20,363 nucleotides of DNA from a virus. The stretch is from positions 1 to 20,363 of IMG/VR virus record IMGVR_UViG_3300032309_001379. One strand, 5' to 3'. A program made the translations under genes and the position numbers. Positions 4,361-20,363 of the stretch are shown here, piece by piece; position 1 is the stretch's first letter; every line of letters begins with the position of its first letter. The notes under the pieces are model-generated. The model was not told the origin of the DNA. It ran no database searches and saw only the letters and a list, made by a program, of their open reading frames with translations.

Positions 4361-4389
4361 TTGCTGTTCCGATGGCGAGATGTTATAAT
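4361..4389 (+). promoter_or_regulatory. Sigma-70 promoter for the primase operon (extended -10)
   Basis: TTGCTG (4361-4366), a 17-base spacer and TATAAT (4384-4389), with the extended -10 element TGT just before it. The weak -35 is offset by the perfect extended -10. A GTTCCG repeat word overlaps the -35/spacer boundary, so a factor bound to the repeats could block or recruit polymerase. Transcription would begin near 4396 and run into the primase gene. Confidence 0.65.
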
Positions 4390-4416
4390 TATACCAGCCC
4401 ACAGAGGTGGTGTCAA
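4388..4416 (-). promoter_or_regulatory. Consensus reverse promoter sharing the -10 palindrome
   Basis: On the - strand TTGACA (4416-4411) is followed by a 17-base spacer and TATAAT (4393-4388), a perfect consensus match. The two -10 boxes overlap as the palindrome TATAATTATA at 4384-4393. The reverse transcript would begin near 4381 and cross the repeat cluster and hairpins toward the late genes. No convincing gene lies in that direction, so it would be a non-coding or antisense RNA, or an origin transcript. Confidence 0.6.
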
Positions 4417-8102: not shown

Positions 8103-8529
8103 GATCGAGAGCGAATTCAAGAAGTACGACCCGATGTCGCTAGTGGATCTGGTCCACGCGATGTCCACGATGCAGAATCGCAAAGAGGCACTGGAAGACC
8201 AGCTTAAACTGATTAACCGGGAATTCGACTTCCTGCGCATCACGAAGATCCCGAGCAAGATGGAAGAGGACGGCGTGGACCGCATTAACGTGACCGGCAT
8301 TGGCCGAGTATCACTTACGGCGGATATGCACGTGTCGGTGAAAGCGGATCTCAAGTCCGAATTCTTCACGTGGCTCCGCGACAACGGGCGCGGCGACCTC
8401 TTGCAGGAGAATATTAACCCCTCAACACTTAAGGCGGCAGTCAAGAAGATGTTCCGTGAAGGCGAAGAAGTGCCGGATCAGCTTCTGAATGTATCACCTT
8501 TCACGCGTGCCTCAATCACGCGGACCTGA
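8092..8529 (+). CDS. Phage protein with N-terminal coiled coil
   Basis: This 145-residue protein starts with AGGGAGAAG upstream of the ATG and overlaps the previous stop. Residues about 15-50 are helical and likely coiled coil (AMSTMQNRKEALEDQLKLIN). A beta-rich part follows (VDRINVTGIGRVSLTADMHVSV), then a helical tail ending VSPFTRASITRT. The same coiled coil plus beta layout recurs in the gene at 18564, so the two may be distant relatives. Such proteins are frequent near phage recombination and replication genes, but I know of no tested function. A DNA-binding or nuclease-accessory role is only a guess. Confidence 0.7.
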   Translation: MSIEIESEFKKYDPMSLVDLVHAMSTMQNRKEALEDQLKLINREFDFLRITKIPSKMEEDGVDRINVTGIGRVSLTADMHVSVKADLKSEFFTWLRDNGRGDLLQENINPSTLKAAVKKMFREGEEVPDQLLNVSPFTRASITRT

Positions 8530-8554
8530 ATTCGGCAATGGTGCTGGATATCCC

Positions 8555-8569
8555 GCACGCAATGCGTGC
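8555..8569. other. Small hairpin GCACGC-AAT-GCGTGC
   Basis: A perfect 6 bp inverted repeat with a 3-base loop in the 59-base gap between 8529 and 8589. No T-run follows, so it is not a typical terminator. It sits 19 bases before the next start and could set mRNA stability or act as a weak attenuator. Confidence 0.35.
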
Positions 8570-8588
8570 ATGTAACTAGGAGCTAGTA

Positions 8589-9332
8589 ATGGCTAAAAAT
8601 CAAGTAGCAGTAAAAGAAGAGTTCGAACTCGTAACTAACGAGATCCCGGATTTCATGAAGCAAGGTAATCGCGGAGCGGAGAATGTTGGCACTGACGACA
8701 TGATCATCCCCCGCATCGAGCTGATCCAAGCACTGTCCCCAGTGCGTAAGAAAAGCGACCCCGCTTATATCGAAGGCGCGGAAGAAGGCATGCTGTACAA
8801 TAACGTGACTCGTGCGCTGTACGGCACTGAAGTTACCGTGGTGCCAGTGTACTACACGAAGCAGTTCCTCGTGTGGAAAGACCGCAAAGCGGGCGGCGGC
8901 GGTAGTAACGGCTTCCGTGGTGCGTTCGCTAGCAAAGAACTGGCTGACCGTGCGATCGCGGAGCTGGCCGAAGAAGCGTTGGAAGTGTCCGATACGGCTC
9001 AACACTTCGTGCTGGTGCGCAATGGCGACGACTGGCAAGAGGCGGTGATCTCGATGGCCAAGTCCAAGGTCAAGGTGTCCAAGCGTTGGAATTCGCTGAT
9101 GCGACTCTCGAACACCGATTCGTTCAGCCGCGCCTACAAGCTGTCGGCCACGACCGAGACCAATGCGCGGAATGAGAGCTACTTTAACTTCAACGTCGCG
9201 GCCCTCGGGTTCGTGAACAAAGAGCTGTACGAGCGTGCCGAGAAGCTGTACGAAACGATCCGCTCCGGCGGCGTCAAGGTCTCTAACGACTACGACGGTG
9301 AAGTGAATGAAGTCGCAGAATCCGAGTATTGA
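8589..9332 (+). CDS. Putative ssDNA-binding-type phage replication protein
   Basis: AGGAG lies 9 bases before the ATG. The 247-residue protein contains a pattern I associate with a widespread phage family often labelled single-stranded DNA-binding protein: IIPRIELIQALSP (39-51), an EGAEEG turn (62-67), LYNNVTRALYG (69-79), then VTVVPVYYTKQFLVWKDR (82-99) and a Gly-rich loop (102-105). The last 14 residues are acidic (YDGEVNEVAESEY), as in many SSB tails. It lies between small recombination-type genes and a UvrD-like helicase. It shares one base with the helicase start (TGATG). The family memory is moderate and the biochemical role is inferred, so treat the name as tentative. Confidence 0.6.
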   Translation: MAKNQVAVKEEFELVTNEIPDFMKQGNRGAENVGTDDMIIPRIELIQALSPVRKKSDPAYIEGAEEGMLYNNVTRALYGTEVTVVPVYYTKQFLVWKDRKAGGGGSNGFRGAFASKELADRAIAELAEEALEVSDTAQHFVLVRNGDDWQEAVISMAKSKVKVSKRWNSLMRLSNTDSFSRAYKLSATTETNARNESYFNFNVAALGFVNKELYERAEKLYETIRSGGVKVSNDYDGEVNEVAESEY

Positions 9333-10747
9333 TGCAAGTTAACGCCATCTACGGACCCCCCGGGACTGGCAAGACCACGGAGCTACTCCGGCGTGTGAAA
9401 GAGACTAGGGATTCAGGCGTTCAAGCCGAACGCGTGGCCTTCGTATCTTTCACCCGCGCGGCGGCTTCCGAGGCACTCTCCCGACTAGGTCTGAAGCGTT
9501 CGGACAATGTGTCCACTATTCACGCGATGGCCTTCCGTCACATGGGCTTGCGGCAGACGCAAGTCGTGGACGCGATGAAGCTTCGCGAATTTTCAACAGT
9601 TATGGGGATACCGATAATTGGCAAATCCCCGGAAGACGATGAGGAGCGTGCCGATGGAGACTTCTACCTTGACCTACTCAATTATGCCCGGAACACCTTT
9701 TCCGATCCGGCAGAAGTTTACGACATCTCGGACCGGCCGGGCACTCGGGCCGAGTTCAATGCGTTTGTTCGGGCATACGCTGATTGGAAATCTACGTACG
9801 GCTATTACGACTTCACCGATATGCTTGAACGTGCCGCCCGTGGCGCAGTACGAGCAGACGCCGAGGTCGTATTTGTCGACGAAGCTCAAGACTTATCACC
9901 TCTTCAGTGGGCTGTCATCGAGAAGCTCGTCAGACGTTCTCACGAAGTGCATATCGCTGGGGACGACGATCAGGCGATTTATACATGGGCCGGTGCGGAT
10001 GTACACGGTATGGCAAGATTTACACAAAAGCATAAGGGTGATAGCCGTGTGCTCTCGCACTCGCATCGACTTCCTGCTTCAGTCCACGCACGATCTCAAG
10101 ACCTCATCCGTCGAGTCGCATTCCGCGTGGATAAGGAGTTTAGTCCCAAAGCAGATGTGGGATTGGTCCGAGTACACGGATCGATCAACTCGGTGGAAAT
10201 CACCCACGGGGAAGATATACTACTACTGGGACGGACGCATTCAGTCCTCCGCGAAGTTGAACAATCACTTATTGAACAGCGCATCCCATACACTAGAGAG
10301 TCGGGCCGCCCCGGGCTTTATCAAAATCGTTATGCCTCCGGTATCCGGGCGTTCCGCAAGCTTGGCCGAGGCGAGCGAGTCACGGACGGGGAGCGAAATG
10401 CAATATTCACCATTTCCAGCGCTGAGACTCGCAGGCTTCTTGAAGCGGGCGACCTCGCCACTCTTGGTCGCACCCCGTTCTACGTCGCTCTTCAAATCCC
10501 CGGCCGGGTCGTGGACTTCTACACCGACGCCGATCTCGATACTGAGCCTACTATCCGACTTTCTACGATCCATGCGGCAAAGGGTCATGAGGCGGATCGA
10601 GTCATTCTTCTCACCGACATGACCACGCGGGTTCAGCAGACCGCCGAGACGTCACCGGACGACGAGGTCCGGGTGTTCTACGTCGGAATGACTCGCTCCA
10701 AGCGAGTGCTAGATATAGTAGAGGGGTACAATGGCTACAAACTGTGA
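9332..10747 (+). CDS. UvrD/Rep-like superfamily 1 DNA helicase
   Basis: This 471-residue helicase carries the full SF1A set: Walker A GPPGTGKT (8-15), motif Ia VSFTRAAASEA (38-48), DEAQD (183-187), motif III GDDDQAIYTWAGAD (210-223), SHSHRLP (242-248), motif V IHAAKG (413-418) and FYVGMTRS (449-456). It should unwind DNA 3' to 5' at the phage fork or during repair. It is much shorter than UvrD (about 720 residues), mainly lacking the large insertions, as is usual in phages. The ATG at 9332 is chosen over an in-frame TTG one codon earlier because it forms the TGATG coupling with the upstream stop. A consensus promoter begins 3 bases after its own stop. Confidence 0.88.
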   Translation: MQVNAIYGPPGTGKTTELLRRVKETRDSGVQAERVAFVSFTRAAASEALSRLGLKRSDNVSTIHAMAFRHMGLRQTQVVDAMKLREFSTVMGIPIIGKSPEDDEERADGDFYLDLLNYARNTFSDPAEVYDISDRPGTRAEFNAFVRAYADWKSTYGYYDFTDMLERAARGAVRADAEVVFVDEAQDLSPLQWAVIEKLVRRSHEVHIAGDDDQAIYTWAGADVHGMARFTQKHKGDSRVLSHSHRLPASVHARSQDLIRRVAFRVDKEFSPKADVGLVRVHGSINSVEITHGEDILLLGRTHSVLREVEQSLIEQRIPYTRESGRPGLYQNRYASGIRAFRKLGRGERVTDGERNAIFTISSAETRRLLEAGDLATLGRTPFYVALQIPGRVVDFYTDADLDTEPTIRLSTIHAAKGHEADRVILLTDMTTRVQQTAETSPDDEVRVFYVGMTRSKRVLDIVEGYNGYKL

Positions 10748-10750
10748 CAG

Positions 10751-10779
10751 TTGACAGACAGTAGCGCGGGTGGTATAAT
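10751..10779 (+). promoter_or_regulatory. Consensus promoter ahead of the SSB-tail gene and Z cassette
   Basis: TTGACA (10751-10756), 17-base spacer, TGG then TATAAT (10774-10779): a perfect -35, -10 and extended -10. It is one of the two strongest-looking promoters here. It probably starts the message for the small SSB-tail protein, dpoZ, purZ, mazZ and datZ, since no clear promoter interrupts them until 16067. Confidence 0.8.
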
Positions 10780-10800
10780 AATACCTTCATTAACCAACAG

Positions 10801-10810
10801 ATAGAGGACA
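10801..10810 (+). promoter_or_regulatory. ATAGAGGACA leader motif with ribosome binding site
   Basis: The 10-base leader motif contains the GAGG ribosome binding core and lies 5 bases before the ATG at 10816. The same motif follows three other promoters at 16116, 18547 and 19309. Confidence 0.6.
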
Positions 10811-10815
10811 TTAAG

Positions 10816-11079
10816 ATGCAGTACGATAACACCAATTCGGGTATGATGGCTCGTAACGAGCGTCGCACCACCGACAAGCACCCGGAATTCTCCGGCTCGA
10901 TCAACGTCGATGGCGTAGATTACTGGCTCTCGGCTTGGGTGAACGAGGGTAAAGCGGGTGGTAAGATGGAAGGTAAGAAATACTTCTCCATTAAGCTCTC
11001 CCGTAAAGAAGGCGGCACCGTTACTAGTAAACCGACGGGCGGCTCTAACTTCGATTACGACGACGACATCCCATTCTGA
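10816..11079 (+). CDS. Small phage protein with an SSB-like C-terminal tip
   Basis: This 87-residue protein has a compact beta-type core (about 14-63: NERRTTDKHPEFSGSINV... then YWLSAWVNEGK and KYFSIKLSRKE), a type seen in many small phage proteins. A flexible Gly/Ser linker follows, then the acidic tip FDYDDDIPF (79-87). The last six residues, DDDIPF, are identical to the tip of E. coli SSB, which recruits replication and repair proteins. It is the first gene after a very strong promoter, so it is probably abundant, as expected of an ssDNA-binding or partner-recruiting protein. The stop shares one base with the polymerase start. The tail is directly seen; DNA binding by the core is inferred. 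Confidence 0.75.
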   Translation: MQYDNTNSGMMARNERRTTDKHPEFSGSINVDGVDYWLSAWVNEGKAGGKMEGKKYFSIKLSRKEGGTVTSKPTGGSNFDYDDDIPF

Positions 11080-12914
11080 TGACCGAATTCCCACGGATCG
11101 ATCACGCACCCGTCGTGGTCATAGACACCGAGACCACGGGGCTGAATTGGTGGGCCGACAAGCTGTTCGGCATTTCCATCGCGCTCCCCGGGTTCTCGGG
11201 GTATTGGGACGTCCGGTCCGATCCTCATGTCATCAAATGGCTCAACGACCTTATCGATGAGAAACGTGTCGATGTGTGGGTCGGCCACAATCTTAAATTC
11301 GACCTCCACTTCCTCCGGGAAGCTGGGGTGGCGATCCCGTTGGACCGAATCGACTGCACGATGACCCGTGCCGCGCTGATTTCGGAGCACGAACCCACCT
11401 ACGCACTCGACTTCCTCGCCCGCAAATACGCTGGCATGAAGAAGGACGACGAGATCTACGAGGAGATGGCACGACTCTTCGGTGGCCGTGCAACCCGGAA
11501 TGCACAGATGCCGAACATTTCGCGTGCCCCGATCAGCATGGTGTCGAAATACGCGATCCAAGACGCCGTGGTCACACTGGCACTGTACGACTGGCAAGAG
11601 GAGCAGATGCGGACGCAGAACCTCGCCCAAGTGCACCGGCTAGAGCGCGATTTGATGCCGGTGATCATGGACATGGAAGAGCAGGGCGTGCGGGTGGACG
11701 TGGGGCTGGCTGAGAAGGCCGTCCGTGACCTCACCGTGCGCGTTGACAATATGCAGAGGGATCTGAATAGCTTGGCCGGTTTCGAGGTCAACCCGAACCC
11801 GTCCGGATCGATCGCGGATCTGTTCAAGCCAACACTCGCGGACGATAACGAATGGTATCTGATCGACGGTACGAAAGCGGACAAGACCGATGGCGGCAAG
11901 GCCTCGATCAACGCCGATTGTCTCCGTCGCATGAAGCACCCCGCCGCGAAGATGATCCTCGACCTACGCAAAATGCTGAAGACCCGCGACACTTTCCTGT
12001 CGGGTCACATCTTGGGGCACGAACACGATGGTATCATTCACTGCAACTATAACCAGACTAAAAACGACGCTGAAGCGGGAACTGGCACTGGACGCCTATC
12101 AGTTACCAATCCCGCTCTCCAGCAGATACCATCTAGAGACGTTGCCATCAAATCGCTTATCCGGCCGATTTTCAAGGCTGATGTGGGTGCTAAATGGATG
12201 GGGCTGGATTGGTCACAATTTGAATTCCGAGTGGCTAACCATTACGGTCAGGTGCCCTCGATTATTGAGGCCTATCGCGCTAACCCTAAGCTCGACTTTC
12301 ACCAGTTGGTGTCTGACCTCACCGGTATCCCCCGAAACGCTCAGTACGCGGGTGGCCCGTCTTCGAAAGCGATTAATCTTGGGCTGGCGTTCAATATGGG
12401 ATCGGGGCGGCTAGCGCAGGAGTGCGGACTACCTTACACCGAGGAAGTGGGGCCGAGTGGTAACGTGTTCTTGAAGGCCGGACCCGAGGCGATGGAGCTG
12501 TTTGACAAATACCACGCCGCGAACCCCGGGATGCGCAACACCGCACAGAAGGCGAGTAACATCGCCAAGGAGCGTGGCTCGGTACATTCGGTGATGGGCC
12601 GTAGGCTCCGATTTCCGGGCGGGCAATTCGTGCACAAGGCGTCGGGGCTGATCTACCAAGCCACTAGCGCGGACTGCATGAAGCAAAAGCTCATCGAACT
12701 GCACAAGTATTTAACCGCCGAAGGCTGTGGGCGACTACTGTTGACGGTACACGACGAGGTGGGCATATCGCTCGATAATGACTCACTCGACAAAGCGCAA
12801 GAGGTAGCACGAATCTACACGACCTTTGATGGTGTAGAATGCCCTATTCACCTACGTGTTCCGATCACGTGCGAGTGGGGTATAGGCGAGGATTGGTATG
12901 AAGCGAAAGGATAG
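11079..12914 (+). CDS. dpoZ: Family A DNA polymerase with 3'-5' exonuclease (DpoZ-type)
   Basis: This 611-residue replicative polymerase lacks the 5' nuclease domain. The proofreading domain shows D16-x-E18 (VIDTETTG), Exo II GHNLKFD (69-75) and Exo III with Y158 and D162. The polymerase domain shows TGTGRLS (335-341), motif A D377 in GLDWSQFEFR, motif B K430 in SSKAINLGLAF, and motif C VHDE (557-560). Two things are odd. The position of E. coli Phe762 is Leu434, and Tyr766 is Phe438. The Arg normally four residues before the motif B Lys is absent: IPR ends at 419, and AQYAGGP intervenes. The gene sits 5 bases before purZ, the arrangement expected of DpoZ in 2-aminoadenine phages, where the polymerase prefers dZTP. 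Polymerase identity is certain; Z preference is inferred from the cassette. Confidence 0.88.
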   Translation: MTEFPRIDHAPVVVIDTETTGLNWWADKLFGISIALPGFSGYWDVRSDPHVIKWLNDLIDEKRVDVWVGHNLKFDLHFLREAGVAIPLDRIDCTMTRAALISEHEPTYALDFLARKYAGMKKDDEIYEEMARLFGGRATRNAQMPNISRAPISMVSKYAIQDAVVTLALYDWQEEQMRTQNLAQVHRLERDLMPVIMDMEEQGVRVDVGLAEKAVRDLTVRVDNMQRDLNSLAGFEVNPNPSGSIADLFKPTLADDNEWYLIDGTKADKTDGGKASINADCLRRMKHPAAKMILDLRKMLKTRDTFLSGHILGHEHDGIIHCNYNQTKNDAEAGTGTGRLSVTNPALQQIPSRDVAIKSLIRPIFKADVGAKWMGLDWSQFEFRVANHYGQVPSIIEAYRANPKLDFHQLVSDLTGIPRNAQYAGGPSSKAINLGLAFNMGSGRLAQECGLPYTEEVGPSGNVFLKAGPEAMELFDKYHAANPGMRNTAQKASNIAKERGSVHSVMGRRLRFPGGQFVHKASGLIYQATSADCMKQKLIELHKYLTAEGCGRLLLTVHDEVGISLDNDSLDKAQEVARIYTTFDGVECPIHLRVPITCEWGIGEDWYEAKG

Positions 12915-12919
12915 AGGTA

Positions 12920-14047
12920 ATGGACAAGATTAAAGTGGTAGTCGATCTACAATACGGGAGCACCGGCAAGGGGCTGATCGTGGGTAAGATCGCGGAGGAC
13001 GAAGAACCCGATACGGTAATCACCGCGTGGGCACCGAATGCGGGGCACACGTACATCAGCAAGACTGGACGCAAGTTCATTCACACGCACCTTGCGAACA
13101 GCATCGTGTCGCCTATGCTAAAGCAGGTGCTACTCGGCCCCGGCTCGCTGATTAACCCGGTGCAACTGCTCGAAGAGATCGCCTCGTGCGCAGACCTGCT
13201 AAAGAACGTTCGCATCGCGATCCACCCGCACGCCGCCGTAGTGACGGATCGTCACATCGAAGAGGAGGCTGGGCCGATGACCAAGATCGGCTCTACTAAA
13301 AAAGGCGTGGGTGCCGCGATGATTCAACGCATTCGCCGAGACCCGGACGACCTGAATATAGCCGCTAATTGCGAGGGACTGTCGAAATACGTGGTCACAG
13401 TGTCCACCTATCGTGCGCTTCTACGCGAAGCCGAGCATGTGCTGGTGGAAGGTGCGCAAGGGTACGGACTCTCGATGTACCACGGCTTCTATCCCTACAC
13501 CACCTCGCGTGATGTGAGCTTGTGGCAAATCCTCGCCGATTGTGGCATCCCGCACGACCTGTTGCCCACAGTGATGGACCTGCCGGACATTACCGTCGTC
13601 GGCACTTGCCGCACTTACCCGATCCGAGTGGCGAATCGATTCGATACTCACGGGACGCAAGTCGGGTACTCCGGCCCGTGTTACGACGACCAGCTGGAGA
13701 TCACATTCGAGGAGATCGGGCAAAAGACCGAGCTGACCACCGTCACTAAGCTCCCGCGCCGTATTTTCACATTCAGCCGCAAGCAGGTCGGGGAAGCGAT
13801 AGAGTATAATGGTGCCCGCGAGATTTTCCTGAACTTCGTTAATTACTGCAAGACCGAGGAAGAGGTGCAGGACATCGTCGAGTCGATCGAGCGTTCGCCT
13901 AACACATTTGTGCGTTGGATTGGACTTGGACCGGAATATAAAGACGTGTACTCGATGCCCCAGTACGGGAAAGAGACACGAATGGCGCGAATTCTTGAAC
14001 TTTGGAGAGCTTATGCTACAGGTAGAATCAACAGTACACACGGATGA
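12920..14047 (+). CDS. purZ: PurZ-type succinyl-aminodeoxyadenylate synthetase
   Basis: PurZ condenses dGMP with aspartate using ATP (or dATP) to give the succinyl intermediate that host PurB cleaves to dZMP. This 375-residue protein is clearly in the PurA fold family: QYGSTGKGLIV (11-21) aligns with the QWGDEGKGKIV of E. coli PurA, NAGHT (40-44) with the catalytic His loop, IGSTKKGVGAA (123-133) with the IMP-site loop, and EGAQG...YPYTTS (177-196) with the same segment in PurA. The catalytic Asp13 of E. coli PurA is Ser14 here, the hallmark separating PurZ from PurA. It is also shorter than PurA (about 430). GAGG lies 3 bases before the ATG. Its neighbours, dpoZ before and mazZ after, support the call. 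Confidence 0.92.
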   Translation: MDKIKVVVDLQYGSTGKGLIVGKIAEDEEPDTVITAWAPNAGHTYISKTGRKFIHTHLANSIVSPMLKQVLLGPGSLINPVQLLEEIASCADLLKNVRIAIHPHAAVVTDRHIEEEAGPMTKIGSTKKGVGAAMIQRIRRDPDDLNIAANCEGLSKYVVTVSTYRALLREAEHVLVEGAQGYGLSMYHGFYPYTTSRDVSLWQILADCGIPHDLLPTVMDLPDITVVGTCRTYPIRVANRFDTHGTQVGYSGPCYDDQLEITFEEIGQKTELTTVTKLPRRIFTFSRKQVGEAIEYNGAREIFLNFVNYCKTEEEVQDIVESIERSPNTFVRWIGLGPEYKDVYSMPQYGKETRMARILELWRAYATGRINSTHG

Positions 14048-14516
14048 ACTCAATGAGACCCCTTGGGCCGTACACCCGAACCGAGCGGCAGAAATTGTCG
14101 ATGCGCACGGCGCAACCATCGCGACTTTCGAAGTCCGTCACCACTTGCGTGGCGTTATGGGAAACTGCGATAAAAATGCCGACCTTGCGGTCCGCGCCGT
14201 CAACGCGTATAAGAAGCGTGGTGGGGCTGACATCCGACAGCTACAGGATCGAATCACCAAGTGGGCAGACTCGCGTTTTCCGGCGCGTACCACTGCGGAC
14301 ATCCTACTCAAGCTCTACGAGGAAGTGGGCGAGTACGCTCGTAACCCAAAAGCCGCTCTCGAAATGGGTGACATCATGATCCTGTTGCTGGACGTCGCGC
14401 ACATGAACGGTATAGACGTACATAGGGCGGTAGAGGACAAGATGGATATCAACGAGGGACGCGAGTGGGAAGTCGACGTCAACACGAGGATTATGCGTCA
14501 TGTCGAACCGAAATGA
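14013..14516 (+). CDS. mazZ: MazG-fold nucleotide pyrophosphohydrolase (MazZ-type)
   Basis: In Z-genome phages MazZ hydrolyses dGTP (and GTP) to the monophosphate, feeding PurZ with dGMP. The C-terminal half of this 167-residue protein has the MazG metal-binding pattern EEVGE (E103, E104, E107) and EMGD (E117, D120), followed by the helix NGIDVHRAVEDKMDINEGREW. The start at 14013 is chosen because GGAGAG sits 3-8 bases before it; a longer frame from 13908 would lie deep in purZ. It overlaps purZ by 35 bases. Residues 15-66 (PWAVHPNRAAEIVDAHGATI ... ADLAVRAVNAY) form a separate module typical of stand-alone small phage proteins, so this looks like a fusion. MazG fold is strong; dGTP specificity is inferred from position. 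Confidence 0.84.
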   Translation: MLQVESTVHTDELNETPWAVHPNRAAEIVDAHGATIATFEVRHHLRGVMGNCDKNADLAVRAVNAYKKRGGADIRQLQDRITKWADSRFPARTTADILLKLYEEVGEYARNPKAALEMGDIMILLLDVAHMNGIDVHRAVEDKMDINEGREWEVDVNTRIMRHVEPK

Positions 14517-14715
14517 TGAATTCAACAGTTGGTACAACGAGTCCTTTGGCCATGTGCTTGGGTCCGAGGACGATGAGAATCGCAATGCGGTGAAACAGAT
14601 CTGGAACGGAGCACTAGAGCACATCGCTCGCAAGTACGAATTCCAGCTCTTCGACGAATTGTCCGGCGACCAGATCGCGGACCAAATTAGGCGTTTACAG
14701 GCGGTAAAATCATGA
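14500..14715 (+). CDS. Small phage protein inside the Z cassette
   Basis: This 71-residue protein is acidic and helical, starting 17 bases inside mazZ with GAGG upstream, and overlaps the next gene by ATGA. The central part (VKQIWNGALEHIARKYE, about 31-47) resembles the W-x-A-A-L-E-H helix common at the C-terminus of small phage proteins. No catalytic residues stand out. Tight coupling on both sides says it is made with MazZ and DatZ; whether it acts in Z metabolism is unknown. Confidence 0.65.
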   Translation: MSNRNDEFNSWYNESFGHVLGSEDDENRNAVKQIWNGALEHIARKYEFQLFDELSGDQIADQIRRLQAVKS

Positions 14716-15347
14716 GTTACATTGTCGCATCGCTCCCGCCCATGAAATGCTTCGTGCGGCGCGAGTTCTTGTATAACGACCACAAGGGCCACGGGGAACT
14801 GGAACCCGCGATTTGGGTCAGCATTAAAGCTCTCCGAGGCCAAGTGTTCCGGATCGAATCGCTCTTGCCCAATTATGGTGCACTGTACGACAAGCTCCCT
14901 ATCCATGCCTACGTTTGGCAATCGGACTACACCGGAAATCTGCCGATCGACGTTCTGCAACTGTGGGACTGCATGGGCTATCGGTTCACGATCATCGAGA
15001 AGATCGGCTTGCGTAATCTAGGCGTGAAGTTCCTCGGCAAAGACCGGGAATGGCATTTCGGCCGATACCTGTTCACTGTGGACTTCTGCGCTGACGGCAT
15101 GGATATAGACACGGGATACACCGAGCAAGCCGAGGAGCACAAGAGCTTCAACTTCATCGCGCTGGACAACGGCCAGTTCGCTTGCCAGCCGAACAATCGG
15201 TGCCTGTGGTACGATCAAAGCTTGATCCCGGCCGAGACTAAATTCCCCGACTTTCAAGCGGCACAACGTATGTGGACCGTCGATGGTACACGCAAGTGGA
15301 GTGCTGGGGACGACTGGTTCTACGACATTAAGGAGAAAAATATATGA
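14712..15347 (+). CDS. Conserved-type phage protein of unknown function in the Z cassette
   Basis: This 211-residue protein is coupled by ATGA to the genes on both sides. It begins with a beta-rich module (MSYIVASLPPMKCFVRREFLYN, then HGELEPAIWVSIKALRGQ) and contains LPIHAYVW (62-69), LQLWDCMGY (82-90) and EEHKSFNFIALDNGQFACQPNNR near residue 140-165. I recognise this set of motifs as belonging to a protein type found in many unrelated phages, always as hypothetical. It is soluble with scattered Cys but no paired CxxC. It sits between mazZ and datZ, which makes a link to nucleotide pools possible, but since the family is also found outside Z phages a general role is at least as likely. Confidence 0.72.
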   Translation: MSYIVASLPPMKCFVRREFLYNDHKGHGELEPAIWVSIKALRGQVFRIESLLPNYGALYDKLPIHAYVWQSDYTGNLPIDVLQLWDCMGYRFTIIEKIGLRNLGVKFLGKDREWHFGRYLFTVDFCADGMDIDTGYTEQAEEHKSFNFIALDNGQFACQPNNRCLWYDQSLIPAETKFPDFQAAQRMWTVDGTRKWSAGDDWFYDIKEKNI

Positions 15348-15907
15348 GCCTGACAGTATACGAACAGCTTCGCGCTTGCCACGTCAAGCGGTGGCACATA
15401 GTGCAGACGTCGCGGGAGCAGACGCTGGCCGAGCATTCTTTCGCGGTAGCAGTGATCGCAGGATCCCTCGCGGCGGCTATGCGCTGGAAAGGCCTCTTGC
15501 AAGACTCGGGCAAGCTCAAGCTCTTGCAGTGGTCGCTCGCGCACGATATAATCGAGGTGCGCACCGGGGACATGCCGACGCCGTTCAAGCGAGACCTAGA
15601 AGCGGTAGGGGGTAAGGGTATCGTGGAAAAGGCCGAGGACCGAGTGGACAGCGAGACCATGGGGGCGTACCGGCAGGTGAAAGGCTCCGATATAGAAGCT
15701 ATAGTCAAGCTCGCGGACCAAATCGAGGCGATCTTCTTCCTGCAGGATAATGGTGTGGGGGCACACGCCAAGCAAGTGCTAGATGGCCTTCGGGCGATCC
15801 TCGCCGACATGGTGAACGAGACTGAGCGTTTGCATCCGACATTGAACGTGCGCGAGTCGGTTCGCCGCGTTTGCAACGATATAGGAATTACAGGGGGTTG
15901 GTTATGA
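15344..15907 (+). CDS. datZ: HD-domain dATP triphosphohydrolase (DatZ-type)
   Basis: DatZ removes dATP (dATP to deoxyadenosine and triphosphate) so the polymerase has only dZTP to place opposite T. This 187-residue protein is close in size to S-2L DatZ and shows the full HD set: H31 in TLAEHS, H67-D68 in LAHDIIE with E71, and D125 in KLADQIEA. The RWHIV turn (16-20) before the first His is typical of the YfbR-like 5'-nucleotidase/DatZ group. It is joined to the upstream gene and to the following zinc ribbon by ATGA overlaps. On sequence alone a YfbR-like dNMP phosphatase is the main alternative. The presence of purZ, mazZ and dpoZ in the same unit makes DatZ much more likely. Confidence 0.86.
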   Translation: MSLTVYEQLRACHVKRWHIVQTSREQTLAEHSFAVAVIAGSLAAAMRWKGLLQDSGKLKLLQWSLAHDIIEVRTGDMPTPFKRDLEAVGGKGIVEKAEDRVDSETMGAYRQVKGSDIEAIVKLADQIEAIFFLQDNGVGAHAKQVLDGLRAILADMVNETERLHPTLNVRESVRRVCNDIGITGGWL

Positions 15908-16119
15908 ATTGTATTAAGTGCGGCGAGGACACCCGAGTCACCACTACTTACCAAAATGCGAACGGCGTTACCCGCCGCCGCCGGACCTGCAATCACTGTG
16001 AATTTCGTTTCACCACCCGCGAAAGGCCGGAGATACCCGAATCACCCGAAGAGGAGAGGGAGGGACTTGACAACCTGTCCCACGTGTGGTATAATGGATC
16101 CCCGACCAACAAACCATAG
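15904..16119 (+). CDS. NrdR-like zinc-ribbon protein without ATP cone
   Basis: The start at 15904 forms ATGA with the datZ stop; an earlier in-frame ATG at 15871 would lie inside datZ. The 71-residue product opens with C3-x2-C6, then a basic strand VTRRRRTC (22-29), C29-x2-C32 and EFRFTTRE. This is the layout of the DNA-binding zinc ribbon of NrdR, the repressor of ribonucleotide reductase genes. The nucleotide-sensing ATP-cone domain is absent; the rest is an acidic Pro/Glu tail. It may bind DNA, perhaps at host NrdR boxes, or be a general zinc ribbon. Its last third overlaps a complete consensus promoter (16067-16095), and its stop codon is part of the next gene's leader motif. Zinc ribbon strong, NrdR relation moderate. 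Confidence 0.72.
   Translation: MNCIKCGEDTRVTTTYQNANGVTRRRRTCNHCEFRFTTRERPEIPESPEEEREGLDNLSHVWYNGSPTNKP
16067..16095 (+). promoter_or_regulatory. Consensus promoter inside the zinc-ribbon gene
   Basis: TTGACA (16067-16072), 17-base spacer, TGG then TATAAT (16090-16095). It is a perfect match with extended -10, lying entirely within coding sequence. It drives the deacetylase-family gene at 16131. Confidence 0.8.
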
Positions 16120-16125
16120 AGGACA
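16116..16125 (+). promoter_or_regulatory. ATAGAGGACA leader motif
   Basis: Copy of the shared leader motif, 5 bases before the ATG at 16131. Its second to fourth bases (TAG, 16117-16119) are the stop codon of the upstream zinc-ribbon gene. Confidence 0.6.
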
Positions 16126-16130
16126 TCACC

Positions 16131-16997
16131 ATGACTAGTACCCCCATATTCTACCACCCGGCCCAAGAGGTCTCCTACGACTTCATCTCGGTAGCGAAGA
16201 TTCCCGAATTCATCCACCAGTTGGAGGGCGATGTGCGATCGAACTTCGAGCCGTACACGGCGGTTGACTTCGAAGAGGCCCATCACCGCGAGTACGTCCG
16301 TGGTGTACTGAAGAATGTCGCCCCCAACGGGTTTAACACGATCGATCCCGAGATCACCAACTCGCTCCTCTACTCAAACGCTGGCCACTGGGCGGCGGCT
16401 AAACATGTACTCCAGCAAGGTGGCGTACGTGGTGGCGTGGCATGCTCCGCGACTCAGGGCTTCCACCACGCTCACTTCGAGGATGGCTACGGCTACTGCA
16501 CGTTCAACGGGCTGATGATCACCGCGATGAAGTCACTCCGGAACGGCGCGACGAATGTGTTGATTATCGACGGGGACGGGCACCACGGCGACGGCACTGA
16601 GGACGTGCTTGACCACCTGATGGTACGGGGCCGTGTGACGCACATCACTCGCCCGGACATTGGACGCCCAGTCCACTCGCACTGGAACGCCGAGATGTGG
16701 CAGTCGTTTGCTAAGGGATTGATTCGAAGCTCGAAGGCGGGTATAATACTATATCAGGCCGGTGCTGACGCTTGGGACCAAGATCCCTACGGTGCCGGGT
16801 ACCTGTCCAAGGAGGGTCTCGCGGCCCGCGATCGTGGCATTTTCACCGCCGCACGCGAAGCCGGAGTCCCATTAGTGTGGAATCTAGCAGGGGGATACTC
16901 GAAGCCGATGCAACACACGATCGACATCCACCTGCAAACGCTGGCGATCAGCGATGAGGTCTATTATGCCGCCAATCAAGAATCTCTCGTTCGCTGA
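16131..16997 (+). CDS. Histone-deacetylase-family zinc hydrolase (acetylpolyamine amidohydrolase-like)
   Basis: This 288-residue enzyme belongs to the arginase/deacetylase fold family that removes acetyl groups from lysines, polyamines or related amines. All key residues are present: the His pair H112-H113 in GFHHAHFEDGYGYCTFNG, the Asp-x-His metal site D149 and H151 in IIDGDGHHGDGTED (D147 likely the charge relay), the third zinc ligand D213 in YQAGADAWDQDP, and a catalytic-type Tyr, Y256, in AGGYS. GGYS is closer to bacterial AcuC and amidohydrolase-type proteins than to class I GGGGY enzymes. It has its own consensus promoter and leader motif, directly after datZ. The fold and active site are clear. 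The substrate (host protein acetyl-lysine, acetyl-polyamine or a modified nucleotide) cannot be told from sequence. Confidence 0.87.
   Translation: MTSTPIFYHPAQEVSYDFISVAKIPEFIHQLEGDVRSNFEPYTAVDFEEAHHREYVRGVLKNVAPNGFNTIDPEITNSLLYSNAGHWAAAKHVLQQGGVRGGVACSATQGFHHAHFEDGYGYCTFNGLMITAMKSLRNGATNVLIIDGDGHHGDGTEDVLDHLMVRGRVTHITRPDIGRPVHSHWNAEMWQSFAKGLIRSSKAGIILYQAGADAWDQDPYGAGYLSKEGLAARDRGIFTAAREAGVPLVWNLAGGYSKPMQHTIDIHLQTLAISDEVYYAANQESLVR
16719..16747 (+). promoter_or_regulatory. Possible internal promoter in the deacetylase gene
   Basis: TTGATT (16719-16724), 17-base spacer and TATAAT (16742-16747) without extended -10. It could give extra expression of the gene at 16966. It may be chance, since it lies inside coding sequence and has a weak -35. 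Confidence 0.3.
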
Positions 16998-18213
16998 CCT
17001 AATGGAGGGGGTGGGTAGGGGCCATCGTGCCATTGCCCGCACCCCGGACGCCCAGCGCATTCCGCTTGGGATGCGTCAAGCGCAAAAGGGTATGCTCCCA
17101 GCAGAAATCGTGGAGCAGTACAACAAGGCGGGAATTTTTGGCAAGACTTCCACCGGCGAACCGATCCGTGCGACGATGTCGAGTACCGATGAAGATGCGG
17201 TGGCCAAGGGATTCATGCCTAGAACCGGTAAGCTTCGGCTCGATCCCGAGAGCAAAGCTCCGAAAGATATAGATCAAGCGCACGCGATGGGTCAATATCC
17301 CAATATTACTTGGACCTACGGCCGCGCTCGCCCCGGTAAAGAAGACCTAGGGTATGGTATCCAAAAGTTCATGGAACAAGCCGCCGCTAACGATCTCCGC
17401 CGGACTCCGTCAATGCCCGATCCAGTGATGACCGAGCTTTACGCGATGGATGTCAAGCCCGAAGGGTACGGAATGCGAGACCCCAGTGCCGCGTGGTGGA
17501 AGAGCCTGCCCGCGAAAGGTAAGGAGATGTACGCGCTGGCGTACGACATGATGCGAGCACAGGGTCACGGCAACGTGGCGTCGCACTTGACCGATGTGAA
17601 TCAAGCGCGGCGGCTCGGCAATGTGGCGTCGCATTCACTCGGACACGGGGACTTACGGTTCATTTCGCCAGTAGAGGAGATGAGCCACATGCCCGGGATG
17701 TCTGGCCAGCTTTTCTCCGCTCCGATCAGCTCCGCGCACGGCGAGGATTACTACCTGAAGAAGCTATTCGGCGGTCCGGGCATGGTCGCGAATCGCAAGA
17801 CCGACGAATTCATGGATGCGGCGTCGGAGCTTCGCACGCCGGATTTTCTGTCGATGACACCCGAGCAGACGATCGGTACACTTCTCACACGTGAAGCGCA
17901 ACTGGCAGGAGCCTATGGCCCCGGCACGGGGACAGCGTCCCCACTACGATTCAGCCAAGTACGCCCGCACGAGAACGTTCTACTCAAAAATCTGGCCGAG
18001 CCGCACGTGGTAGCAAATCCCGGACGTATAGAGGGGGCTATGGGTCCCGCGACGCTCGGACGACAGGCTACGACCGAGGCCTTGATCCGTGGGATGCTTA
18101 AAGGGTACGACCCCGACGAGATCGTTGAGCGTTTGTTGCAAGACGCACCACCCGGCGGGTACAAGAATCGGTACAAAAAAGGAGGACTGGCTCATGCCGC
18201 AGTCATCTCTTAA
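16966..18213 (+). CDS. Large phage protein of unknown function
   Basis: The ATG at 16966 is preferred to one four codons upstream because ATGAGG (16954-16959) is then well placed as ribosome binding site. It overlaps the deacetylase gene by 32 bases. The 415-residue product is soluble. Its centre has a His-rich, repeat-like stretch: QGHGNVASHLTDVNQA followed by RRLGNVASHSLGHGDLRF, in which GNVASH occurs twice about 17 residues apart. The C-terminus ends NRYKKGGLAHAA, a KKGGLA-type tail I associate with large phage polyvalent or virion-associated proteins. I recognise no enzyme domain. It might be packaged and injected, or serve early after infection. The coding call is firm because the frame is long and coupled on both sides. 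Confidence 0.7.
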   Translation: MPPIKNLSFADLMEGVGRGHRAIARTPDAQRIPLGMRQAQKGMLPAEIVEQYNKAGIFGKTSTGEPIRATMSSTDEDAVAKGFMPRTGKLRLDPESKAPKDIDQAHAMGQYPNITWTYGRARPGKEDLGYGIQKFMEQAAANDLRRTPSMPDPVMTELYAMDVKPEGYGMRDPSAAWWKSLPAKGKEMYALAYDMMRAQGHGNVASHLTDVNQARRLGNVASHSLGHGDLRFISPVEEMSHMPGMSGQLFSAPISSAHGEDYYLKKLFGGPGMVANRKTDEFMDAASELRTPDFLSMTPEQTIGTLLTREAQLAGAYGPGTGTASPLRFSQVRPHENVLLKNLAEPHVVANPGRIEGAMGPATLGRQATTEALIRGMLKGYDPDEIVERLLQDAPPGGYKNRYKKGGLAHAAVIS

Positions 18214-18499
18214 TATAGACGGTATAGTTACCGAGCGCGGGGGTGCGTACGGCGACTACACGATCCAAGCCGAGATCGCACAGACGCTGAAGGATCTCTT
18301 TCGCGAGTGCCCGGGTTGGGACCGGCTGGAGTACCACCAGCGCGAATCGCTCGACATGATCGCGTGCAAGGCGTCCCGCATTTTGAACGGCGACCCGAAC
18401 CACCTTGACTCGTGGGTGGACATCGCGGGGTACGCGACCATCGTGGCGACACGAATACCAAAGGGGGGTATTGACAAGGCTACCCCACCTGTGTTATAA
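18194..18499 (+). CDS. DUF6378-like phage protein
   Basis: GGAGG lies 8 bases before the ATG at 18194; longer in-frame starts lack a ribosome binding site. The 101-residue helical protein has the features I recall for DUF6378: YGDYTIQAEIAQTLK (19-33), W42, then HQRESLDMIACKASRILNGD (48-67) and HLDSWVDIAGYATIV (70-84). The spaced acidic residues (E51, D54, D72, D76) recall all-alpha MazG-type pyrophosphatases, so a nucleotide-related role is possible but only by resemblance. It overlaps the upstream gene by 20 bases. Its final codons read through the TTGACA of the next promoter, and its stop TAA lies inside that promoter's TATAAT. Confidence 0.76.
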   Translation: MPQSSLNIDGIVTERGGAYGDYTIQAEIAQTLKDLFRECPGWDRLEYHQRESLDMIACKASRILNGDPNHLDSWVDIAGYATIVATRIPKGGIDKATPPVL

Positions 18500-18500
18500 T
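18471..18500 (+). promoter_or_regulatory. Promoter overlapping the end of the DUF6378-like gene
   Basis: TTGACA (18471-18476), 18-base spacer, TGT then TATAAT (18495-18500). The upstream gene's stop codon TAA occupies 18497-18499 inside the -10 box. Confidence 0.75.
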
Positions 18501-18507
18501 ACAGGGA

Positions 18508-18529
18508 CTGGATCAGTGAGACGATCCGG
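18508..18529 (+). other. Leader hairpin downstream of the promoter
   Basis: CTGGATC and GATCCGG pair as a 7 bp stem (one T-G) with loop AGTGAGAC at the 5' end of the expected transcript. A 5' stem of this kind can protect an mRNA from decay. No other leader in the window has it. Confidence 0.4.
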
Positions 18530-18546
18530 ACCAACCGATAGACCAC

Positions 18547-18556
18547 ATAGAGGACA
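18547..18556 (+). promoter_or_regulatory. ATAGAGGACA leader motif
   Basis: Third copy of the shared leader motif, 7 bases before the ATG at 18564. Confidence 0.6.
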
Positions 18557-18563
18557 TATAATC

Positions 18564-18860
18564 ATGGCAAAGACTACTACTAAACCCGTCGCGATCACCA
18601 CTGACATGGTGGACGAACTCGCCAGCGTGCGTGATCAGCTCAAGGCGTTGACCGCCCGCGAGAAGCACCTAAAGGAGATCTTCCGCGCCGGTGGCGACGC
18701 TATTTACCGTGGCGACCAGCATCAGATCGAGATCAAGTTCACCAAGCGTCCCCAGCTCGACATGGACGCCGTCCGTGCGAAGCTCCCGGCTGAGTGGATC
18801 GCCGAGAACACCGGCGAAGTCGAGGTGATGAACATTCGTCAGATGGAGATCGTAAAATGA
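18564..18860 (+). CDS. Small coiled-coil phage protein
   Basis: The ATG at 18564 follows a promoter and the shared leader motif. The 98-residue protein has a helical, probably coiled-coil segment (about 14-44: DMVDELASVRDQLKALTARE...) and a beta-rich second half (YRGDQHQIEIKFTKRPQLDMDAVRAKLP). It ends with a short strand pair (EVEVMNIRQMEIVK). This matches a common small phage protein type often near exonuclease or recombination genes, with no tested role I know of. The coiled coil plus beta layout is similar to the gene at 8092. ATGA couples it to the membrane protein that follows. Confidence 0.72.
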   Translation: MAKTTTKPVAITTDMVDELASVRDQLKALTAREKHLKEIFRAGGDAIYRGDQHQIEIKFTKRPQLDMDAVRAKLPAEWIAENTGEVEVMNIRQMEIVK

Positions 18861-19075
18861 AGCCCACCCCGTATACTACCAAAACCGGCATCCAGATCGG
18901 GTGCGACTATCAGCCCCCACAGACGTGGGAGCCGAGCGCGGACATGGAAAGGCTCCAGTCCTCGTTGCTCAATCCCGAATACCGCCCAACGGCCGAACGC
19001 ATTTGGGACGCTATCCTTTGGACCCTCAGTGTCGCACTGCTTGCGATGCTCATTATAGGAGTACACTATGCATGA
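18857..19075 (+). CDS. Small single-helix membrane protein
   Basis: This 72-residue protein starts by ATGA overlap with the previous gene. The N-terminal 45 residues are polar and begin with YTTKTGIQIGCDYQPP (6-21), a pattern I recall from other short phage proteins. Residues about 51-70 (AILWTLSVALLAMLIIGVHY) form one clear membrane helix at the C-terminus, with the soluble part probably in the cytoplasm (tail-anchored). It could act in superinfection exclusion or host takeover, but nothing in the sequence decides this. It lacks partners such as an endolysin nearby, so a holin role is unlikely. Confidence 0.68.
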   Translation: MKPTPYTTKTGIQIGCDYQPPQTWEPSADMERLQSSLLNPEYRPTAERIWDAILWTLSVALLAMLIIGVHYA

Positions 19076-19253
19076 CGACGACGTCGAGGTGGACGAGGGC
19101 GCGAACACTTGCCCCGTCTGCAATGCGGGTATGGCTACCAAGTGCTTGGAGTCAAAGACCGACCCTCGACACGACATCTTTTGGGCGAAATATGGCTACC
19201 AGTGCGAAGAGTGTGGTCACCAAGGCGACACTTGGGAAGTACTGGGCGATTAG
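19068..19253 (+). CDS. Small zinc-ribbon protein
   Basis: AGGAG precedes the ATG by 6 bases, and the gene overlaps the membrane-protein gene by 8 bases. The 61-residue product has an acidic start (MHDDDVEVDEG), then C15-x2-C18 and C46-x2-C49 in NTCPVCNAG and YQCEECGHQG, a two-knuckle zinc ribbon, with an extra Cys26. Such small phage ribbons may bind nucleic acid or a host protein. No other domain is present. A promoter starts 7 bases after its stop. Confidence 0.68.
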   Translation: MHDDDVEVDEGANTCPVCNAGMATKCLESKTDPRHDIFWAKYGYQCEECGHQGDTWEVLGD

Positions 19254-19260
19254 ACGATAC

Positions 19261-19289
19261 TTGACAGGTTATCGCACCTGTGTTATAAT
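19261..19289 (+). promoter_or_regulatory. Consensus promoter for the DUF932 gene
   Basis: TTGACA (19261-19266), 17-base spacer, TGT then TATAAT (19284-19289): perfect boxes with extended -10 in a 74-base gap between genes. Confidence 0.8.
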
Positions 19290-19308
19290 TCATTCTTCAT
19301 CAACACTT

Positions 19309-19318
19309 ATAGAGGACA
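19309..19318 (+). promoter_or_regulatory. ATAGAGGACA leader motif
   Basis: Fourth copy of the shared leader motif, 9 bases before the ATG at 19328. Confidence 0.6.
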
Positions 19319-19327
19319 CTTCAGATC

Positions 19328-20308
19328 ATGGCACACGAACTTAACTTCAATTCCGCTGGTAAAGCTTCAATGGCGTACGCAGGAGAGACACCTTGGCACG
19401 GACTCGGCCAACAGTTGACCCCGGACGCCCCCCTCGACGTTTGGACTCGCGAAGCGGGTCTAGACTGGGAAGTCAAAAAGGGCGCGATCGCCTACGAGGT
19501 GCGCGACGAGGAGAATAACCCCGTCCGCATGCAGACCGTACCAGCACGCTGGGCATTGTACCGCTCCGACACTGGTGCGCCCTTGTCCGTCATGTCGAGC
19601 AATTACCACATCACCCAGCCCCGCGCCGTGATGGAATTCTTCCGCGACTTGACCGAAGGCGGCGACTTCAAGATGGAGACCGCTGGTGTCTTGCGCAATG
19701 GCTCCACCTATTGGGCGTTGGCCAAGGCCGAGGATTCGTTCGACGTGGGCGGCGGTGACGTGGTCCTGCCTTACCTACTGCTCGCGACGTCTTGCGACGG
19801 CTCAATGTCGAACACCGCCCAGTTCACGACTACTCGTGTCGTGTGCAACAACACGCTGTCGCTCGCCGTGGCGAACAAGACCGGCCAAATCCGCGTGCCG
19901 CACAGCACCCAGTTCAACGCCGACAAGTTCAAGGCGGAACTCGGCCTGTGCGCGGACACTTGGAGCCAGTTCAAGACCAGTGCTACGTCGCTGTCCAAGC
20001 GCAAGGTGTCGAAAGAGGAGGCGGCCCGCTACTTCCTCGACGTGTTCTACGGCGACGAAGCCGAGTCGATCGACGTCGAAGCCAAGCGTCCGATGATCGA
20101 GCTGGTCACCAAGATCTACCTCGACGGCGTGGGCCAGCGAGCCAAGACCGCCCAAGGCACAGCGTGGGGACTCTTGAACGCCGTCACCCGCTTCGCCGAT
20201 CACGAGCGCAAGGCCGCATCCCGCGACACTCGCTTGCAGTCCGCTTGGTTCGGTGCCGGTGCCCGCTTGAAACGCGACGCATTGACACAGGCGATGGCCA
20301 TGGTATAA
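19328..20308 (+). CDS. DUF932 (phage/plasmid-like) protein
   Basis: This 326-residue protein fits the DUF932 / phage-plasmid-like family: N-terminal ETPWHGLGQQL (20-30) and AGLDWEVKKGA (43-53), MSSNYHITQPRAVMEFF (89-105), and the core LLATSCDGSMSNTAQFTTTRVVCNNTL near residues 150-175. Family members occur in many phages and plasmids, often as an abundant early protein. Some were proposed to act in DNA transfer or anti-restriction, but no activity is established to my knowledge. It has its own consensus promoter and leader motif, so it is probably highly expressed. Its stop TAA falls inside the -10 box of a further promoter that drives a gene beyond the window. Confidence 0.85.
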   Translation: MAHELNFNSAGKASMAYAGETPWHGLGQQLTPDAPLDVWTREAGLDWEVKKGAIAYEVRDEENNPVRMQTVPARWALYRSDTGAPLSVMSSNYHITQPRAVMEFFRDLTEGGDFKMETAGVLRNGSTYWALAKAEDSFDVGGGDVVLPYLLLATSCDGSMSNTAQFTTTRVVCNNTLSLAVANKTGQIRVPHSTQFNADKFKAELGLCADTWSQFKTSATSLSKRKVSKEEAARYFLDVFYGDEAESIDVEAKRPMIELVTKIYLDGVGQRAKTAQGTAWGLLNAVTRFADHERKAASRDTRLQSAWFGAGARLKRDALTQAMAMV

Positions 20309-20309
20309 T
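20282..20309 (+). promoter_or_regulatory. Promoter at the end of the DUF932 gene
   Basis: TTGACA (20282-20287), 16-base spacer, TGG then TATAAT (20304-20309). The DUF932 stop TAA (20306-20308) is within the -10 box. The 54 bases left after it show no start with a ribosome binding site, so the controlled gene lies beyond the window. Confidence 0.75.
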
Positions 20310-20363
20310 CGTGGTGTCCATGGTTCCCCGCAGTTGCCATGAGATCTTAAAGGGGGCTTCGGC

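Follow-up and report, generated by a model that had tools for sequence, protein, structure and literature searches.

Does an uncultured phage that carries the genes of the 2-aminoadenine (Z) pathway build its DNA with Z instead of adenine, and what does it keep beside these genes? The question is raised by a single IMG/VR virus record, IMGVR_UViG_3300032309_001379, whose 20363 bases were analysed as a whole and are hereafter named the window. Its + strand carries dpoZ, purZ, mazZ and datZ, and the best explanation of the locus as a whole is a working PurZ-type cassette, in a phage whose DNA most likely has Z replacing adenine. On sequence evidence, we give this reading a probability of about 0.92. 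The cassette is a further example of the already known PurZ-type Z pathway, and extends the Z-genome phages by one uncultured lineage. Its genetic surroundings look new, as they include a conserved deacylase gene together with several unusually perfect promoters.

Four genes match the PurZ-type Z pathway

The initial annotation had claimed a complete dpoZ-purZ-mazZ-datZ set, and all four genes do lie where it placed them, with families and residues in agreement. Predicted products are a family A DNA polymerase with a 3'-5' exonuclease for dpoZ (11079..12914, 611 aa), a 2-amino-N6-succino-deoxyadenylate synthetase for purZ (12920..14047, 375 aa), MazZ for mazZ (14013..14516, 167 aa, ATG start, GGAG upstream), and an HD-type dATP triphosphohydrolase for datZ (15344..15907, 187 aa). 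Diagnostic residues were taken from PMC8599892, PMC8342488 and PMC8065100 and were read from alignments with the proteins of S-2L, phiVC8, SH-Ab 15497, PMBT28 and Bm1, S-2L being left out for DpoZ and phiVC8 for MazZ.

PurZ scored 347 bits (E 6.6e-104) with NF038379, a model with a cut-off of 300 that PurZ0 proteins pass too, and its nearest PDB chain is 7odx (E 1.4e-79). The letters of chains 7odx, 7ody and 6zpa agree with the aligned S-2L PurZ, MazZ and DatZ. Residue S14 of PurZ aligns with S-2L S23, which replaces the catalytic Asp of PurA. DpoZ reached 776 bits with NF038380 (cut-off 500, E 2.4e-233) and is nearest to chain 7pbk (E 1.7e-135), which is phiVC8 DpoZ (PMC8599892). It keeps L434, F438 and G523, which mark the phiVC8-like group (L455, F459, G548), together with the exonuclease residues D16, E18 and D75 (D26, E28 and D85 in the reference) and with R140 and M144 (R161, M165).

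MazZ matches PDB 7ody (E 5.7e-12) and PF04447. Its MazZ-1 core, at about residues 70-167, is preceded by an N-terminal extension, and holds the acidic metal ligands E104, E107, E117 and D120 (reference E35, E38, E50, D53), the guanine-reading I123 and D127 (I56, D60) and R150 (R83). It differs from S-2L at I16, N20 and A92, which are described as unique to S-2L. DatZ matches phrog_7076, named dATP triphosphohydrolase in PHROGs (E 7.7e-30), and PDB chain 6zpa is nearest to it (E 5.2e-18). It has the metal ligands H31, H67, D68 and D125 (reference H34, H66, D67, D119), the phosphate-binding R16, K82 and K122 (R19, K81, K116) and the base-selecting W17, I19 and P80 (W20, I22, P79). The residues named in the initial annotation, PurZ S14, MazZ E104/E107 and E117/D120, and DatZ H31, H67-D68 and D125, were thus all found, and the alignment with S-2L and phiVC8 proteins that it had proposed gave the residues of the structure papers for DpoZ, MazZ and DatZ.

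By analogy with these named relatives, DatZ would remove the triphosphate from dATP and MazZ would convert dGTP into dGMP, which PurZ would couple with aspartate; host enzymes would then complete the Z triphosphate (dZTP), and DpoZ would insert Z opposite T. Judged from the genes and their relatives, virion DNA most likely contains Z.

The cassette is conserved among uncultured relatives

IMG/VR was scanned for relatives, and 59 distinct loci were recovered, whose PurZ is 44-100% identical to that of the window. Besides purZ and mazZ, present in all 59, datZ was found in 57 and dpoZ in 52, and the genes found follow the order dpoZ-purZ-mazZ-datZ with 0 exceptions. The distance between dpoZ and purZ is at most 150 nt in 46 of the 52 loci, and ssb, the gene for a single-strand DNA-binding protein, stands directly ahead of dpoZ in all 41 relatives having both. 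The two loci with datZ unmatched are L053, whose contig ends 0.8 kb past mazZ, and L036, which extends 1.9 kb past it.

For the initial annotation, a tree with PurZ clustering among ordinary PurA would refute the reading. In a maximum-likelihood tree of 29 rows, PurZ of the window fell instead inside a clade of 25 phage PurZ rows (100/98) that includes S-2L, phiVC8, SH-Ab 15497, PMBT28 and Bm1. Three PurZ0 rows (97/97) stand outside it, as does PurA of E. coli, the sole PurA row and on a very long branch. The window groups with 12 uncultured viruses in a branch of 13 rows (100/99), each of which carries the deacylase gene described below. The best PurZ of a named phage is about 50% identical to that of the window. 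A megablast of the window against 50,697 phage records, from which records very near the window were possibly left out, gave no match; Z phages have been surveyed among 53,887 NCBI viruses (PMC12884076).

Points against the reading, and its rivals

Several observations weigh against this reading. Of the two residues listed as PurZ-specific and substrate-contacting, T273 and Q308 in S-2L numbering, T273 is kept and Q308 is N308 in the window; N is also found at 308 in phiVC8, SH-Ab 15497, PMBT28 and Bm1, four of the five aligned PurZ phages. DpoZ has E560 instead of phiVC8 S583, as have SH-Ab and PMBT28, at a position not counted as clade-specific in PMC8599892. Identity of MazZ and DatZ to their counterparts in S-2L, phiVC8 and SH-Ab is low, at about 28-43%; no NCBIfam model was reached by MazZ, and the sole NCBIfam match of DatZ is a 5'-deoxynucleotidase model, below its cut-off. 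In L036 (11578-13452), the 1.9 kb after mazZ holds only small frames and datZ is unmatched; this clade member may lack it there through loss or move. Finally, the record covers a fragment of a genome, probably about one third of a phage genome of some 57 kb.

The rival that survives best is partial replacement, in which the pathway works and dATP still enters DNA through a leaky DatZ or DpoZ. In E. coli with S-2L genes, a significant part of the adenine was converted, not all (PMC8342488), and DpoZ is described as selective in a relative sense, by one to two orders of magnitude in terms of dNTP concentration (PMC8599892). We consider this improbable, as DatZ and DpoZ are both present here with their known residues, like in the phages reported with complete substitution (PMC12884076). 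A conflict of full replacement with adenine methylation was also considered. No sign of one was seen: among 16 relatives of 53-59 kb, no match to PF01555 or PF02086, the two DNA amino-methyltransferase families searched, was found, which is expected if adenine is absent. As for PurZ being a true adenylosuccinate synthetase that raises ordinary adenylate while its neighbours merely clean the nucleotide pool, the match of PurZ to the PurA family PF00709 (E 5e-30) speaks for it, and it is discarded as extremely improbable on the NF038379 score (above the cut-off here, only below it in 14 control genomes), on S14 in place of the catalytic Asp, on the position in the tree away from PurA and on the constant company of DpoZ and DatZ.

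Layout of the unit and comparison with known Z systems

The initial annotation had described four genes in a single transcription unit. The four are there, in a span that holds six frames, since mazZ and datZ are separated by a 71-aa frame (14500..14715, +), with a relative in 47 of the 59 loci, and by a 211-aa frame (14712..15347, +) that matches phrog_3704, labelled ferredoxin (E 4.3e-74). The latter is a sporadic insert: the protein is present in 7 of the 59 relatives, and in one of the 7 it is located outside the cassette. A relative with 30% identity was also seen in L360, whose contig encodes a protein weakly similar to PurA/PurZ. The single unit was retained as probable, with a likely start further upstream than dpoZ. 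From the sequence, transcription would begin at a perfect sigma70 promoter (10751..10779, +), behind a helicase gene and ahead of ssb-dpoZ-purZ-mazZ-datZ, so that ssb (10816..11079, +; phrog_7364, E 2.1e-14), which passes directly into dpoZ, would be its first gene. In the + strand scan of 10751-15904, one terminator-like site was flagged, of 6 pairs, at 14751; over 8500-20363, both strands, 6 such sites were observed for 9.6 in shuffles.

Like the window, phiVC8, SH-Ab 15497, PMBT28 and Bm1 carry dpoZ, purZ, mazZ and datZ, with ssb and a relative of the gene at 8589-9332 (phrog_2402) nearby. The arrangement differs in three of them: ssb sits between dpoZ and purZ in SH-Ab and PMBT28, and a primase gene does so in phiVC8, whereas Bm1 has dpoZ immediately before purZ, as in the window. 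MazZ of the window is shorter than that of SH-Ab and PMBT28. S-2L shares the purZ-mazZ-datZ order and the residues, but it has no DpoZ and uses PrimPol (PMC8599892, PMC8065100). The PurZ0 systems of Wayne and Ghobes likewise make dZTP through a PurZ relative, with DutZ/DmtZ replacing DatZ/MazZ (PMC12884076); unlike PurZ of the window, PurZ0 forms its own branch in the tree, where other PurZ0 phages served as rows.

A zinc-ribbon gene and a deacylase gene follow datZ

Two genes stand directly after datZ, neither of which was matched in the 13 kb loci of phiVC8, SH-Ab, PMBT28 and Bm1. The first (15904..16119, +), whose ATG overlaps the datZ stop, encodes a 71-aa NrdR-type zinc ribbon (PF22811, E 1.6e-08) in which the ATP cone was not matched; a relative is present in 50 of the 59 loci. 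The effector of NrdR is dATP; with DatZ lowering dATP, the ribbon could act as a competitor at the NrdR boxes of the host. A phage ribonucleotide reductase was rejected as the reason for this gene, PF02867 being unmatched in the 16 relatives.

The second gene (16131..16997, +) encodes a predicted zinc-dependent deacylase of the histone deacetylase (HDAC) superfamily (PF00850, E 5.7e-26). It lies downstream of datZ in 48 of the 57 loci with datZ, 227-505 nt past the datZ match in 46 of them and 838 and 1916 nt past it in two. Among the nine others, seven have a distant PurZ (44-56%) and two, L037 and L059, a nearer one (67%); these two are without the deacylase and the next gene together. A general Z-phage gene is therefore not what it is, as it was unmatched in these nine loci (L050, L052, L054, L055, L057, L061, L066, L037 and L059) and in those of S-2L, phiVC8, SH-Ab, PMBT28 and Bm1.

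In all 43 distinct sequences, the zinc ligands D149, H151 and D213, the dyad H112-H113 and Y256 are invariant, and the ratio of nonsynonymous to synonymous substitution rates is 0.10-0.20 (7 pairs). By these sequence measures, invariant catalytic residues and a low ratio, the deacylase is a maintained enzyme. That this lineage retains it near the Z genes suggests that the phage encodes a step of protein or small-molecule deacylation.

An AlphaFold2 model (predicted local distance difference test score 91.6) was compared with solved structures. The closest is Vibrio cholerae HdaH with decanoic acid (9gky; VIA Z 34.4, 2.2 A over 269 residues), followed by Leptospira HDAC11 with dodecenoic acid (VIA Z 31.8, 2.7 A over 268 residues); apart from a second HdaH entry, the other fold matches listed are at 27.9 or below. 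In the structure alignments, the phage protein is 24% identical to HdaH (cluster 5b), alike in fold and motif, and 20% identical to Leptospira HDAC11, alike in fold; its phage-borne setting sets it apart from both. It has QGFHH at 109-113, a foot-pocket motif of the GYHH/GFHH type shared with HdaH and human HDAC11, and also GGY. HdaH is reported to be a lysine de-decanoylase with low activity, and the GYHH/GFHH foot pocket, instead of RPP, has been tied to long-chain use (PMC11532494). On the nearest folds and on this motif, we favour a long-chain acyl-lysine or small-molecule deacylase over a polyamine deacetylase, and the substrate would most likely be an acyl-lysine or a small acylated host molecule, early in infection. 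Sequence comparison (E 2.7e-09 for the acetylpolyamine amidohydrolase 3q9b vs 5e-20 for 9gkv) and predicted fold (VIA Z of about 27 for cluster 4, which holds acetylpolyamine amidohydrolase, vs 34 for HdaH) both make the polyamine reading less likely.

As to where such genes occur, the ten virus homologues of acetylpolyamine amidohydrolase reported in PMC9992855 are all from giant viruses. A relative of the deacylase, 27-35% identical, was found in 6 records of a named phage collection, and PHROGs gave no match to it. In a deacylase tree of 112 rows, 25 Z-phage and 10 bacterial enzymes fall together on a long-stemmed, starred branch (100); 8 of these 10 nearest bacterial enzymes are betaproteobacterial by record title, at most a lead to the host, and the bacterial ones are nested among the phage ones, weakly supported. 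In the betaproteobacterial loci L110-L114, the deacylase gene is divergent to a VWA-domain-like and a regulator-like gene (named by eye), a neighbourhood that is possibly a bacterial system. These bacterial neighbours pointed to no evident function.

Perfect promoters in the window and its relatives

The window was scanned for sigma70 consensus hexamers, a perfect site being 12/12 for TTGACA / TGnTATAAT, with the extended -10 TG. Five such sites lie on the + strand of 8500-20363: those at 10751..10779, 16067..16095 (35 nt ahead of the deacylase ATG), 18471..18500, 19261..19289 and 20282..20309. Shuffling the window 300 times with a Markov model produced no perfect promoter. In 35 of the 41 relatives scored, the 160 nt ahead of ssb hold a site of 9-12/12 with TG; it is perfect in 21 of the 41, and none was found in 6. 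In the 160 nt that precede the deacylase gene, all 48 relatives scored have a site of 10-12/12 with TG, and 39 of these are perfect.

Since a strong promoter precedes the deacylase as well as ssb, two adjacent units are probable, one with the Z genes and one with the deacylase. As all 48 relatives scored have a strong promoter ahead of the deacylase gene, the view that this gene is part of the Z operon proper is weakened. The Z genes would probably be transcribed together from the promoter at 10751, with the single-strand DNA-binding protein gene first, and a strong separate promoter at 16067 would open a second unit headed by the HDAC11-like deacylase gene. A further perfect site with TG is present on the - strand (4388-4416), with similar sites in L023 and L044. 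It points left, into a stretch with genes on the opposite strand, and an antisense or small RNA is a possible product.

Are perfect promoters a trait of Z phages? We counted perfect TTGACA-N(13-15)-TGnTATAAT sites over whole records. With the window itself left out, 27 of 43 PurZ phage records have at least one (14/20 and 13/23), as do 14 of the 26 outside the clade of the window, whose membership was chosen by the author from identities. Corresponding counts are 0/3 for PurZ0 records and 2/34 (1/12, 1/15 and 0/7) for records without PurZ. Fisher tests gave p 2e-7, or 5e-5 without the clade, both too small given the kinship among records, and the groups were matched neither for host or guanine-cytosine content nor for reliance on a phage RNA polymerase. 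In these counts G000 was dropped (same virus as G001), G019 was counted once, and G029, G031, G032 and G041, with 282-291 bits for NF038379, below the cut-off, were placed in the PurZ group. The PurZ model was also run on the controls, of which G022 reached 139.6 bits, below the cut-off. Among them, G030 shows no promoter and is possibly a piece of a clade genome that misses purZ.

G050, also a control, shows 10 perfect promoters, of which three have the same sequence as promoters of the PurZ record G051; possibly it comes from a PurZ phage and the gene lies outside the fragment.

Against a strict rule stand S-2L and Bm1, all three PurZ0 phages and another 14 PurZ records, in none of which a perfect promoter was found. 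Nor are such promoters unique to Z phages: a scan of the collection gave at least 120 stretches with perfect promoters (80 loci listed), and among 50 scanned records checked, a single one is a PurZ phage above the cut-off and another has a weak match (94.9 bits), so that many viral contigs without PurZ have one.

Z bears the same 2-amino group as 2-aminopurine, and makes a third hydrogen bond with T. The -11 purine of each -10 box in Z-DNA would thus carry a 2-amino group at the place where sigma needs a free C2 hydrogen. According to the review PMC4496690, the unsubstituted C2 hydrogen of the -11 adenine is important for melting, and 2-aminopurine at -11 blocked the melting of a weak promoter, not that of a promoter of optimal sequence. 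By analogy, as these data concern 2-aminopurine, which is not Z, this suggests that Z phages may need optimal promoters. With Z at every -10 box, we reason that the phage would be pushed to optimal promoters: weak ones would fail, and selection would drive PurZ phages to perfect TTGACA / TGnTATAAT. The full proposal, that the 2-amino group at -11 forces Z phages to optimal host promoters and that in the clade promoters of the same kind drive an early, host-takeover deacylase, is tentative, and we rate it as rather unlikely. The cassette makes testable the question of how ordinary host RNA polymerase reads DNA with Z at the flipped base, to which perfect promoters are a concrete, assayable answer. 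Among the PubMed Central matches listed, no title joined Z-genome phages with promoter strength or a deacylase. What deserves further attention in this locus is its deacylase and the pattern of its promoters.

Other features of the window

A scan of the window with Rfam gave no RNA family at gathering score. Further downstream, a gene at 18194..18499 (+) encodes a DUF6378 protein (PF19905, E 4.2e-07), relatives of which are present in phiVC8 and Bm1 too.

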